Below, piece by piece: positions 4,693-33,945 of a stretch of 64,000 nucleotides of DNA. Each line of letters starts with the position of its first letter. Positions within the stretch are counted from its first letter, which is position 1. The notes under the pieces are model-generated. The model was not told the origin of the DNA. It did not search any database and was given only the letters and a program-made list of their open reading frames with translations. This stretch comes from an uncultured Alphaproteobacteria bacterium (GTDB lineage: Bacteria; Pseudomonadota; Alphaproteobacteria; Micropepsales; Micropepsaceae): positions 1 through 64,000 of the forward strand of contig CAIOYY010000100.1 in the NCBI GenBank assembly GCA_903862715.1, in the 5' to 3' direction. Both the position numbers and the translations under genes were made by a program.

Positions 4693-4738
4693 TTGAAAAT
4701 CAGTCCGTCACGGGGTGCTGGAAGGCTCTGATTTTCAA
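4693..4738. repeat. Perfect 11-bp inverted repeat in the tldD/coxB divergent region
   Basis: TTGAAAATCAG at 4693-4703 is repeated inverted, without mismatch, as CTGATTTTCAA at 4728-4738, with 24 nt between. It lies in the AT-rich centre of the divergent promoter region, just upstream of a -35-like TTGACG. It is not placed to terminate either flanking gene, as both are transcribed away from it, so an operator or a 5'-leader hairpin is the likelier reading. The binding protein is unknown. Confidence 0.5.
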
Positions 4739-4750
4739 AGAAAAAACCTT

Positions 4751-4779
4751 TTGACGGCGACCTTACTGCCGCGTGGCAT
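4751..4779 (+). promoter_or_regulatory. Candidate promoter for the coxB-ctaD operon
   Basis: TTGACG (4751-4756) resembles a -35 box. A weak -10 candidate (TGGCAT, 4774-4779, or the overlapping GCATAA) follows after 17-19 bp. The position is about 130 bp upstream of coxB and just downstream of the 11-bp inverted repeat. Alphaproteobacterial -10 boxes are loose, so this is only a candidate. Confidence 0.35.
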
Positions 4780-4906
4780 AAGGTCGCAATGACTTGATGG
4801 TATCAGGCCGCCTAAATCGGGCGGAGGAATCTACACCGTTCGGGCGCGCCATGGCCGGATCTATCCTGCCTGTGGCGCAGTCGCACGTTTCAAACGAGGA
4901 CGACCG

Positions 4907-7404
<2,498 letters not shown>

Positions 7405-28873: not shown

Positions 28874-28917
28874 CATGGCCGGGCCATCCTGGACTTGATC
28901 CGGGACCCGGCCCTCCA
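28874..28917. repeat. Intergenic repeat, family B, copy 1
   Basis: A palindrome-like element with the core GGGCCATCCTGGACTTGATC and CCGGGACCCGGCCC. A second copy, with the same core order, lies at 29711-29756. The CCCGGACTTGATCCGGGA type sequence is a widespread intergenic repeat in alphaproteobacteria. It lies just after the OmpA-like lipoprotein gene. Confidence 0.7.
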
Positions 28918-29099: not shown

Positions 29100-29684
29100 T
29101 CAGATGCAGAAATTGGGGGTAAGGCCTTCCGGCAATTTCGTGGTTTCGTCCGCGCAGGCGACATCGAGCTGCCCTTGCGTCAGGCCGCGGGCGGTGGAGA
29201 GGTCGGCGCCCTTAATCGAGGCGATGTCCAGTTTTGCGCCAGTCAGGTCGGCGCCCGAGAGATCGGAATGTCCCAGATTGGCCCCGGTCAGGTCGGTGTT
29301 GCGAAATGAGGCACCGGCGAAATTCGCGTAGGACATGCACATATAGACCGCTACGGAATCGTCGAACTTTGCGCCGGCCAGGTTCTTTTCCTTAACGCAG
29401 GTATGGGACAGGTCCACGCGGGAAAGATCGCAGCCGGGGCAGTCGATGATTTCGCCGGCCTGAAGGCGTTCCAGCGGCGAAAGCGTTTGAATAACAGGGG
29501 TTTCGTCAGGCGCGGCGAGCGCGGTGACCATCTGCCCGGACACGGCATTTTCTCCGGCCATGCTCGGCATCATTAACGCCAGCACGATCAGGCAGACCCC
29601 CAGGGTCATCAAGGCATAGGCGGTGCGCATCGGCGTCGTCCCATCACGAAACATCTGCCGGATATGTTGCAGGGTGCGTGCCAT
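29100..29684 (-). CDS. Membrane-anchored pentapeptide-repeat protein
   Basis: This 194-residue protein has an N-terminal hydrophobic segment (about residues 18-40) and then a run of pentapeptide repeats of the A(D/N)Lxx type (about residues 90-165). Examples are ANFAGASFRNTDLTGANL and LSGADLTGAKL. Such repeats form a right-handed beta-helix. A few cysteines (CPGCDLS, SHTC, VACAD) suggest a disulphide-stabilised periplasmic domain. The function is unknown. The start at 29684 is uncertain, as the frame runs upstream into repeat copy B2. It reads toward its own terminator at 29008-29043. Confidence 0.8.
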   Translation of the reverse strand: MARTLQHIRQMFRDGTTPMRTAYALMTLGVCLIVLALMMPSMAGENAVSGQMVTALAAPDETPVIQTLSPLERLQAGEIIDCPGCDLSRVDLSHTCVKEKNLAGAKFDDSVAVYMCMSYANFAGASFRNTDLTGANLGHSDLSGADLTGAKLDIASIKGADLSTARGLTQGQLDVACADETTKLPEGLTPNFCI

Positions 29685-29710
29685 GCCAGTCTTGGCGGAT
29701 GATGCCCGTC

Positions 29711-29756
29711 CTTGCCGGGCCATCCCGGACTTGATCCGGGACCGGGCCACGCATCC
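29711..29756. repeat. Intergenic repeat, family B, copy 2
   Basis: This copy reads CCGGGCCATCCCGGACTTGA then TCCGGGACCGGGCC, matching copy 1 at 28874-28917 apart from a few bases. It sits immediately upstream of the pentapeptide-repeat gene and would lie in its 5' leader if transcription starts further upstream. Confidence 0.7.
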
Positions 29757-29909
29757 CGTCCGCTTGATCTTTTCGAAGACCCCACGCTGAATGGGTCATC
29801 GTCGTTTTCTCTAAAAATCGCCGTCCCTTTTTATCTCGGCGGGCGCGGAGTTCGATCCGCCATGGGAACGGACCTGGATCAGGCGGGAAGTTTGGCCGCA
29901 TTCGGGCGT

Positions 29910-29935
29910 AAACATACCGAGCGGTCGGTTTTCCG
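29910..29935. promoter_or_regulatory. Degenerate TetR-type operator-like site
   Basis: AAACATACCGA followed by GCGGTCGGTTTT repeats the left half and centre of the perfect palindrome at 30050-30083, with a changed centre and a degraded right half. The two sites are 144 bp apart. No regulator gene lies nearby. Confidence 0.45.
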
Positions 29936-30049
29936 TGCGCGGTGAAATCACTCCAACACAGCCCTGCACGATCAAGCAAAAGCATTCGGCGCCAACGCGT
30001 TACTGCTGACACTGAATGTGGCAGACAAGCGCTCTGCCGCCCGCGGAAA

Positions 30050-30083
30050 AAGAAAACATACCGACCGGTCGGTATGTTTTCTT
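30050..30083. promoter_or_regulatory. Perfect 34-bp palindrome, TetR-type operator candidate
   Basis: The sequence is its own reverse complement over 34 bp, with no mismatch and no loop. The core is ACATACCGACCGGTCGGT plus its mirror half. The ACCGACCGGTCGGT core is like the operators of TetR-family regulators. A loop-free palindrome does not make a good terminator, so an operator is preferred. It lies 366 bp upstream of the pentapeptide gene start and just beyond the nrdJ terminator. Confidence 0.6.
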
Positions 30084-30093
30084 CCCCGGAGCC

Positions 30094-30126
30094 CAAACGA
30101 AAACGGGCGATCCGAAGACCGCCCGT
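30094..30126 (-). terminator. Rho-independent terminator of nrdJ
   Basis: On the minus strand ACGGGCG (30120-30126) and CGCCCGT (30103-30109) form a 7-bp stem with a 10-nt loop, followed by TTTCGTTT. It lies 25 bp after the nrdJ stop and is placed to end that transcript. Confidence 0.75.
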
Positions 30127-30150
30127 TCCGTCAACCAAAAGGAGAAGCGT

Positions 30151-33100
30151 TTAGCTGCAGCCGGAAGTGCCGCCGCAGGTATCGCATTTCATGCACGTGC
30201 CATTGCGCAGCAGCGTGAAGTTTCCGCAGGCGCCACAGGCATCGCCCTCATAGCCTTTCAGCCGTGCTTCCGCCGCGCGTTTGGCCTGGGCGTCGCGGGC
30301 AGCGCCCGTTTTGTTCGCCGCCGCCGTCGCCACCTGCGTGAAGCGCGTCTCCAGCGCTTCCATCACCTGACTGCCCGAATTGGCTGCCGCCGTCACCTGC
30401 GCCGTGATCTGGGCCAGCGCCGCCTCGACTTCGAGTTCTTCGGCGAGTTCCAGATCATGGTGGTGATCGTGGTGATGGGCATGGGCTTCTTCCGCCATCA
30501 CATCGACTTTGGCGACCGTGTTGCCGCGGACGACCGACAGGCGGCTCATATTGCCGCGGATGTAACCCGTCGAGGTGACGCGCGAAATCATCTGCTGCTG
30601 CGCGTCGCGCCCATCGGGCTTGCCGCTGCCGTCGCCATTGCCGAGGTCTTCATCGTCCGTCGGCTGCACATGGGCGAGGTCGTAGCGTCCGAGATAGGAA
30701 ACGGCCATTTCTCGGAAGATGTAATCGAGCACGCTGGTCGCGTTCTTGATCGAGTCATTGCCGATCACGATGCCCGCCGGTTCGAAGCGGGTGAAGGTGA
30801 AGGCATCGACGAATTCTTCCAGCGGTACGCCATATTGCAGGCCGATGGAGATCGCGATGGCGAAATTGTTCATCAGCGACCGGAAGGCGGCGCCTTCCTT
30901 ATGCATGTCGATGAAGATTTCGCCCGGACGTCCGTCTTCATATTCACCGGTCCGCAAGTAAACCTTGTGTCCGCCGACGACGGCCTTCTGGGTATAGCCC
31001 TTGCGGCGATGCGGCAGACGTTCGCGCGCCTGGGCGCGGACCTTTTCGACAATCCGTTCGACGATACGTTCGGTGACGGTTGTCGTACGCGCCGCCTGAG
31101 GCTGCGCCACGATTTCTTCTTCCTCGTCGTCCACGGCTTCCAGAATCTGGCTCGCCAGCGGCTGGGACAGTTTCGAGCCGTCGCGATAGAGCGCATTGGC
31201 CTTCAGCCCCAGTTTCCAGGACAGCATGTAGGATTCGCCGCATTCATCGACGGTGGCCGCATTCGGCATGTTGATCGTCTTCGAGATCGCGCCCGAGATG
31301 AAGGGCTGGCAGGCGGCCAGCATGCGGATATGGCTTTCGACCGACAGCGAACGCTTGCCGATGCGGCCGCAAGGGTTGGCGCAGTCGAACACCGGAAGAT
31401 GTTCGTCCTTCAGCTGCGGCGCGCCTTCGAGCGTCATGGTGCCGCAAACATAAAGATTGGCGGCCTCCACTTCGGCTTTGGAGAAGCCCATCGCCTTCAG
31501 CATGTCGAAGGTGGGGGAATCGAGTTCTTCGGCGCCGAAGCCCAGCACTTCGCCGCAGAACTCTTCGCCAAAGGTCCATTTGTTGAAGGCGAAGCGGATG
31601 TCGAAAGCATGCTCCAGCGCATGTTCCAGCGCGTCGATCTGCGCGTCGCCAAATCCCTTGGCGCGCAGTGCCTGATGGGTAAGGCCCGTGGTCGCGCCCG
31701 CAAGCGTACCGCGGCCGACGGCATACAGGATGATGTCTTCGATCTGCTGCGGGTTGTAGCCGAGCGTCTTCAGCGCCTGCGGCACGCAGCGATTGATGAT
31801 CTTGAAGTGACCGCCGCCGGCGAGCTTCTTGAACTTCACCAATGCGAAATCGGGTTCGACACCGGTCGTATCGCAATCCATTAGAAGGCCGATCGTGCCG
31901 GTTGGGGCAATCACGGTCGCCTGCGCATTGCGATAGCCATACGCGGTGCCGAGCGACAGCGCCTGATCCCAGGCCGCTTTCGCGGCTTCCGCCAGTTCCT
32001 TGTCCGGAATAGCGGCATGGTCGAGCGCGACCGGATGGGTGTGCAGCGATTCATAGCCGGACTTTTCGCCGTAGGCGGCGCGGCGATGATTGCGGATCAC
32101 GCGCAGCATCGCATCGCGGTTGTCTTCATGTCCGGGGAACGCACCGAGTTCGCCCGCCATTTCCGCCGAGGTCGCATAGGAGATGCCGGTCATGATCGCC
32201 GACACGGCGCCCGCAATGGCGCGGCCCTGTTCGGAATCATAGGGAATGCCCGCCGCCATCAGAAGGCCGCCGATATTCGCAAAGCCGAGGCCGAGCGTCC
32301 GGTAATCGTAAGAGAGTTGCGCGATTTCCTTGGACGGGAATTGCGCCATGAGGACCGAGATTTCCAGCACGATAGTCCAGAGTCGCACCGCATGTTCGTA
32401 ACCCGGCACGTCGAAGGCGAAACTGTCGTCCTTCGTCGCTTTCGCAAAGGTCATCAGATTCAGCGAGGCCAGATTGCAGGCCGTGTCGTCGAGGAACATG
32501 TATTCCGAGCACGGATTCGACGCGCGGATATCGCCGCCTTTGGGGCAGGTGTGCCAGTCATTGATCGTAGTGTGGAACTGGATTCCGGGATCGGCGCAGG
32601 CCCATGCGGCATGCGAAACCTTCTCCCATAGATCGCGCGCCTTCACGGTCTTGTGGAGCTTGCGGTCGGTGCGGCGTGTGAGATTCCAGTCGCCGTCGTC
32701 TTCCACCGCGCGCAGGAAGGTGTCGGTAACGCGGACCGAATTGTTCGAATTCTGGCCCGAAACCGTAAGATAGGCTTCGGAATCCCAGTCGGTGTCATAC
32801 GCCTTGAAGTCGAAATCGTCTTCGCCATAGCCCTGACGTGCAAACGAAATCACGCGTTCGATGTAATTGTCAGGGATCATCGCGCGGCGCGCAGCCTTGA
32901 TCTCGCGCTTCAGCGCCGGGTTTTTGGTTGGGTCGAAGCAATCGTCGCCGGAGCCTTCGCAATTCACGCAGGCGCGGATGACGGCCTTCAGATGGGTGCG
33001 CGCGAGCTTCGATCCCGCGACCAGCGCGGCGACCTTCTGTTCTTCGAGCACTTTCCATTCGATGAATTGTTCGACGTCGGGATGGTCGATGTCGACCACC

Positions 33101-33945
33101 ACCATCTTGGCGGCTCTACGCGTCGTGCCGCCCGATTTGATCGCGCCTGCCGCGCGGTCGCCGATCTTGAGGAAGCTCATCAGGCCCGACGATTTGCCAC
33201 CGCCCGAAAGGCCTTCGGTCTCACCGCGCAGCGCCGAGAAATTCGATCCCGTGCCCGAGCCATATTTGAAGAGCCGCGCTTCGCGGGTCCACAGATCCAT
33301 GATGCCGCCTTCATTCACGAGGTCGTCAGCGACGCCCTGGATGAAGCAGGCATGGGGTTGCGGGTGTTCATAGGCTGAATTGGATTTCGTCAGCTCGCCG
33401 GTTTTGAAATCGATATAGTGGTGGCCCTGGCTGGGGCCATCGATTCCATAGGCCCAGTGGAGACCGGTGTTGAACCATTGCGGGCTGTTCGGTGCGGCGC
33501 GCTGGCTGGCCAGCATGTGGCACATCTCGTCATAGAAGGCGCGCGCGTCGGTTTCGGAATCAAAATAGCCGCCCTTCCAGCCCCAATAGGCCCAGGTGCC
33601 GGCAAGGCGATGAAAGACCTGCTTGGCGCTGGTCTCGCCGCCCGTGCGGGCCGCGGTGGAGGACAGCGCGCCCAGAGCTTCGGCATCGGGGACCTGACGC
33701 CACAGGAAGGAGGGGACGTCGTTTTCTTCGACAGATTTCAGGACGCTGGCGACACCGGCGCGGCGGAAATATTTTTGTGCCATCACGTCGCAAGCGACCT
33801 GGCTCCAGCTCTCCGGCACTTCGATGTCGGAATGGCGGAACACGATCGACCCGTCCGGATTGCGAATCTCGCTGGTCGCGGTGCGGAAGGGGATACCCTC
33901 GTAAGGAGATTTGCCTTCGGTGGTAAAGAAACGCCGGATACGCAT
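30151..33945 (-). CDS. nrdJ: Class II (cobalamin-dependent) ribonucleotide reductase
   Basis: This enzyme reduces ribonucleotides to deoxyribonucleotides using adenosylcobalamin and needs no oxygen. The 1264-residue protein has the typical alphaproteobacterial start [17 protein letters not shown], a substrate region [15 protein letters not shown], active-site cysteines in [20 protein letters not shown], and a C-terminal four-Cys redox tail ending [10 protein letters not shown]. Near residue 1165 there is a His-rich insertion, [10 protein letters not shown], between the catalytic core and the tail. No B12 riboswitch is seen upstream. The gene stands alone with its own terminator. Confidence 0.97.

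Follow-up and report, generated by a model that had tools for sequence, protein, structure and literature searches.

What is the function of a long perfect palindrome in a gap that holds no regulator gene? In the window (the whole stretch of 64,000 nucleotides that was analysed), positions 30050-30083 form a palindrome of 34 bp, AAGAAAACATACCGACC/GGTCGGTATGTTTTCTT, with 17-bp arms that are 100% complementary and no loop, exactly as the original prediction had described it. By chance, a 64-kb sequence of 61% G+C should contain about 8 × 10-6 such palindromes. Only two genes border the gap, both on the minus strand, and the earlier statement that it lacks a regulator gene holds. On the right is a gene named from its sequence as that of the B12-dependent ribonucleotide reductase NrdJ (30151-33945), the 3' end of which faces the palindrome; about 73 bp separate its stop from site D (defined below), and a G+C-rich hairpin can be read from the sequence between them (about 30101-30124). 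On the left is a gene for a pentapeptide-repeat protein (29100-29750; Pfam PF00805, E = 3.6 × 10-16), co-directional with nrdJ. Translation of the pentapeptide gene more likely begins at an internal ATG (about 29684) than at the GTG at 29750. An open frame of 622 codons on the plus strand (30016-31884), antisense to nrdJ, covers the palindrome and probably owes its existence to the high G+C content. The window also contains REP-like inverted repeats of the GGACTTGATCCGGGA type at 28880-28915 and 29715-29750.

Copies of the palindrome and their distribution

The palindrome had been taken for an orphan, which it is not. In the assembly of its own genome (2.59 Mb, 107 contigs, 88.9% complete), the 22-bp core is found at 11 places, nine of them exact and two with one mismatch; the expected count at up to one mismatch is about 10-7, and the reversed pattern gave no match in the same assembly. 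A gapped search of the assembly adds a shortened copy on contig C89, so that there are 12 near-identical sites in total, on 12 contigs, one of which adjoins a TetR gene. The stretch common to the full copies, designated site D, is AAAACATACCGACCGGTCGGTATGTTTT (28 bp; 30053-30080 in the window, no strand assigned), outside which their flanks are dissimilar. In the shortened copy (C89:8302-8319; L055), D is 4 bp shorter, ACATACCGACCGGTATGT, and the other two parts of the same module (A and B, see below) are intact. On contig C90 (L019), a small palindrome of 17 bp, ACATACCGTTGGTATGT, lies at about 5436-5452, 20 bp from D, and resembles a miniature relative of the predicted operator.

With up to two mismatches, the core has no match in the 60 relatives searched, six of which are congeneric. 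The exact 22-mer was not found in viral contigs, and a search of plasmids gave weak partial matches at best (E = 0.9 or worse). In the genus mates nrdJ is 71-82% identical and is followed by different genes, and no site is present at the nrdJ locus in the three cases that are readable.

Composition and placement of the module

Every D that is away from a contig edge constitutes the right end of a module, with an imperfect site, B, 86-179 bp to its left. The second site was first located by a half-site search, which placed it at comparable distances from most of the copies, and the three parts, A, B and D, were then delimited by oriented alignment. In the window, B is a putative imperfect second operator, TAAACATACCGAGCGGTCGGTTTT, followed by a conserved CGGTGA (29910-29946, plus strand). 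It corresponds to the degraded partner noticed earlier 144 bp away: positions 29910-29929 are 95% identical to the left 20 bases of the palindrome, with a start-to-start distance of 144. The consensus of B across the modules is AAAACATACCGrACGGTCGGTTTT, then CGGTG. A sequence model of B identifies exactly 11 sites in the genome, each D having one apart from that at a contig edge on C29, and no clear B without an accompanying D in the same genome.

Box A, CTTGATCTTTTCGAAGACCCCACGCTGAATGGGTCATCGTCG, lies at 29763-29804 (plus strand), between B and the pentapeptide gene, and contains a promoter-like TTGATCT-N15-GCTGAATG that points at B and D. The pattern common to the modules is CTTGATCTTTTCGAAnnC...GCTGAATT...TATCGTCG. 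A model of the box yields eight strong copies (32-45 bits), all within modules, and three weaker matches, on C20 and C42. The box is absent near the copies on C68, C20 and C42, and in the latter two a weaker A lies past the next gene. On C20 (L014), two weaker A-like boxes (4733-4774 and 5325-5362) flank an ORF of 145 aa (4829-5266); the first of them is 55 bp before the start of the ORF, which fits A as a promoter. A strict sigma-70 scan found no promoter at box A, which would fit only a loose alphaproteobacterial promoter pattern. Box A is at least 25 bp from B, and a geometry of operator over promoter is clear only on C72. In several modules, G+C-rich repeats akin to the GGACTTGATCCGGGA type stand between A and B.

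The interior between B and D is mostly drifted. A faint residual similarity is left (z = 6.6, versus 3.8 for the neighbouring gene ends), the closest pair of interiors being those of C3 and C101, and a loose inversion seems to be present in the inner flanks of B and D. A motif search between B and D gave only a slight excess over shuffled sequences, in a G+C-rich stretch before D, and Rfam returned only sub-threshold matches, with no RNA at the gathering level. Because the interior keeps this faint excess of similarity, the copies are probably related by descent, and B and D appear to be maintained by selection. The range of B-D spacings speaks against a rigid repression loop.

In 11 of the 12 copies, the gene to the right of D (X) is oriented toward D and has its end 1-157 bp from it, and in eight of the 12 D is within 30 bp of the stop codon (p of about 2 × 10-5 under random intergenic placement, with crude gene calls). 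The genes that end at D in these 11 copies encode a FAA hydrolase, a histidine kinase, an FkbM methyltransferase, a member of the isochorismatase family, an ABC transporter, a GlcG-like protein, a succinate dehydrogenase flavoprotein, a TctC-like protein, a propeller-like protein, NrdJ and RpsD (the GlcG-like and TctC-like identities, as that of NrdJ, being named from sequence). The sole exception is C72, where D adjoins the start of a TetR gene. No common theme is found among the neighbours of the 12 copies. In eight of 11 copies the gene on the far side of box A (Y) points leftward, with D and B behind it, which places the module upstream of it; these genes encode the pentapeptide-repeat protein in the window, a GST (C101), a Gly-zipper protein (C68) and small secreted or membrane proteins (C72, C89 and C90), and the remaining two are on C20 and C42. 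The copies on C3, C15 and C22 are between convergent genes.

The candidate regulator

The TetR-type core proposed in the original prediction is well supported by the association of the site with TetR genes in other genomes. Among about 85,000 species, 24 further loci carry the 20-mer CATACCGACCGGTCGGTATG, with a range that extends from Anaerolineales to Actinomadura and Novosphingobium. At 16 of the 24, a TetR gene starts within about 100 bp, and all 16 of these TetR proteins have the recognition helix [ST]KGA[FL][YF]. Three alphaproteobacterial TetR proteins found independently by similarity, with TKGA[FL][YF]HHF, have variant operators near their starts: ATACCGAACGGTCGGT in G039 (a near copy of B), TACCAACCAGTCGGTA in L067 and TACCGACCAGTTGGTA in L072. 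In a control genome with 72 TetR proteins, KGA[FLM][YF]H occurs in none of the 62 that are analysable, and the sole TetR with an operator at one mismatch carries TKGSLYHHF. The palindrome is therefore very probably the operator of a TetR-type repressor, as predicted from this association. A second operator was sought upstream of these 16 TetR genes and not found, so that B is particular to the present genome among them. In two Actinomadura genomes (L142, L145), the 20-mer stands in a shared context that is not TetR-adjacent. On contig C62 of G039 (L092), the TetR promoter reads TTGACA-N17-TAAAGC; its hexamers enclose a palindrome, CAGACCACGCGGTCTG, and are closely followed by a B-like operator.

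The genome under study encodes seven TetR domains, and the helix SKGAFFHHF is found in only one, that of the protein encoded on C72 (start 2354 or 2387, end 2992). Since this is the only TetR with the helix shared by all 16 TetR proteins encoded beside the 20-mer elsewhere, the C72 protein most likely has D and B as its operators, which would belong to the PaaR/PfmR operator class. On C72, D is 57 bp before the helix-turn-helix (HTH), within the range of 32-70 bp at the TetR loci of other genomes, and the order is A, B, D and then tetR, the natural reading of which would be autorepression of tetR. The earlier suggestion that the regulator is elsewhere gains a specific candidate on C72, and the alternative, a relic of a lost pair, is not supported, as a candidate regulator is present together with 12 maintained copies. 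Like the sites, the gene is missing from the six genus mates, some of which are incomplete assemblies. Its best match of solved structure is NemR (E = 1.9 × 10-11), in the HTH region. Against the NCBIfam models, it scores 49.7 of 300 bits for CurR and 35.4 of 247 for AcuR, both under the curated cut-offs; with scores so far below, the protein was rejected as an orthologue of either.

Possible functions and known systems

That the same block stands at the 3' end of, and points at, unrelated genes leads to the proposal that transcription from box A is repressed. D would be the high-affinity operator of the repressor encoded on C72 and B a weaker one, and the two would form a fixed pair in a lineage-specific intergenic module, A-B-D, multiplied to 12 loci. 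On C72 the arrangement would give ordinary autorepression. At the other loci, where an unrelated gene ends at the module and is faced by it, the repressor would block transcription from box A and so keep down a short RNA, non-coding or antisense, that would otherwise run against the neighbour, and D may also mark a transcription boundary. Protein binding, promoter activity of box A, repression and any RNA product are all predicted in this proposal, which, taken as a whole with the C72 protein as repressor, is given roughly even chances. The negative sigma-70 scan, the copies that lack a box A nearby, the variable B-D spacing, the disparate neighbours and the sub-threshold Rfam matches count against it. 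The 11 copies at gene 3' ends may serve the repression of box A, or else control of gene Y, insulation or marking of the chromosome.

Control of gene Y is the nearest of the other readings: each module would control the gene on the far side of box A, which has the same direction as X and would be repressed by the C72 protein in an ordinary regulon. It accords with the eight modules upstream of a leftward Y, and operators of the same class sit in promoters in the PaaR and PfmR regulons. However, D is close to the stop of X and not to the start of Y, the Y genes have no shared function, and no leftward promoter is recognisable at B or D. The particular version put forward earlier, a control region of the pentapeptide gene, may be correct for that locus, but it leaves the three copies between convergent genes unexplained, and a regulon of this kind is considered unlikely. 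Alternatively, the control region of tetR may have been dispersed through the genome by mobility or recombination, the modules being its decaying copies with no present function. The copies are multiple, intergenic and confined to one lineage, and the faint similarity of interiors, with C3 and C101 closest, and the loose inversion of the inner flanks would agree with such an origin. The original prediction had set occurrence at many unrelated intergenic places against an operator, and this was borne out in part, but the repeat is a multi-part module in which the operator is conserved and the interior has drifted. Nine D copies are letter-perfect beside 80-130 bp that have drifted, so that D is probably under selection; moreover, no target duplications were seen, the flanks differ outside the 28 bp, and the orientation to X is non-random (11 of 12). 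A functionless repeat is considered quite improbable.

If the A-arm/T-arm hairpin of D were a bidirectional terminator, ending transcription of X and opposing transcription, the proximity of D to the stop in eight copies and the 15-bp stem (-19 kcal/mol) into which it folds as RNA would be expected. However, a terminator does not depend on one exact core, hairpins already precede D at nrdJ and rpsD, and the TetR association would be left unexplained. D also lacks the form of an intrinsic terminator: in place of a G+C-rich stem with a free T run, its T run is part of the stem, and a terminator scan does not flag it. This reading has the slightest probability of all. Alternatively, TetR at dispersed operator pairs could serve in nucleoid organisation or in positioning cell division, by analogy with SlmA and RefZ, which are precedents (PMC6657595). 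The candidate is of the TetR family, the 12 near-identical sites are on 12 contigs beside unrelated core genes, and most of them disturb no promoter. A role in transcription is nevertheless suggested by box A, by site B and by the C72 copy with its presumed autoregulation. The sites of RefZ keep their positions throughout the genus, while the present sites are species-specific, and the 107-contig assembly gives no map positions. A chromosome landmark is considered very improbable.

TetR regulators are usually regarded as local switches with few targets and with the operator between regulator and target. Here, a candidate cognate regulator can be named from the helix-operator correspondence, yet most of the predicted sites are paired and after stop codons. 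It may be suggested, tentatively and with more doubt than confidence, that one acquired TetR has built, in one lineage, a network of a dozen operator pairs located where unrelated core genes (nrdJ, sdhA, rpsD and others) end, and that it controls convergent non-coding or antisense transcription there, or insulates gene ends, rather than acting on the promoters of metabolic genes. If the predicted binding is true, this would be a compact system for how a local repressor turns into a dispersed network, and for the question of TetR action at the 3' ends of genes.

Among known systems, REP/BIME-type repeats are likewise multi-copy palindromes at gene 3' ends, paired with a linker; here, in contrast, the linker is not conserved, the core is letter-perfect and is a known TetR operator core, and there are only 12 copies. 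The drifted interior, the unrelated flanks and the lack of visible target duplications speak against a REP/MITE-type repeat. SlmA of E. coli and RefZ of B. subtilis are TetR-family proteins that act at a limited set of dispersed near-palindromic sites (PMC6657595); the present system resembles them in its TetR-family candidate and dispersed sites, and differs in that the sites are species-specific and paired. Within the NemR/CurR/AcuR group, the C72 protein is closest to NemR by structure match and weakly related to the CurR and AcuR models. In Thermus thermophilus, the TetR-family PfmR (TTHB023) binds TACCGACCGNTNGGTN, which is close to the D core, with nanomolar affinity, and some promoters have two sites (PMC7022988); its targets, however, are fatty-acid gene promoters, with no 12-copy intergenic module. 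In Burkholderia cenocepacia, mutation has shown that a 14-bp core, ACCGACCGGTCGGT, is needed for control attributed to the TetR-type PaaR (PMC2770484). This core is identical to that of D, but the PaaR sites are in the promoters of phenylacetate genes, whereas most of the present copies are after the stop codons of unrelated genes, as D and B pairs with box A. The sites are read as operators by association and precedent, and what is particular to them is the paired, 12-fold and mostly 3'-end placement in one lineage.
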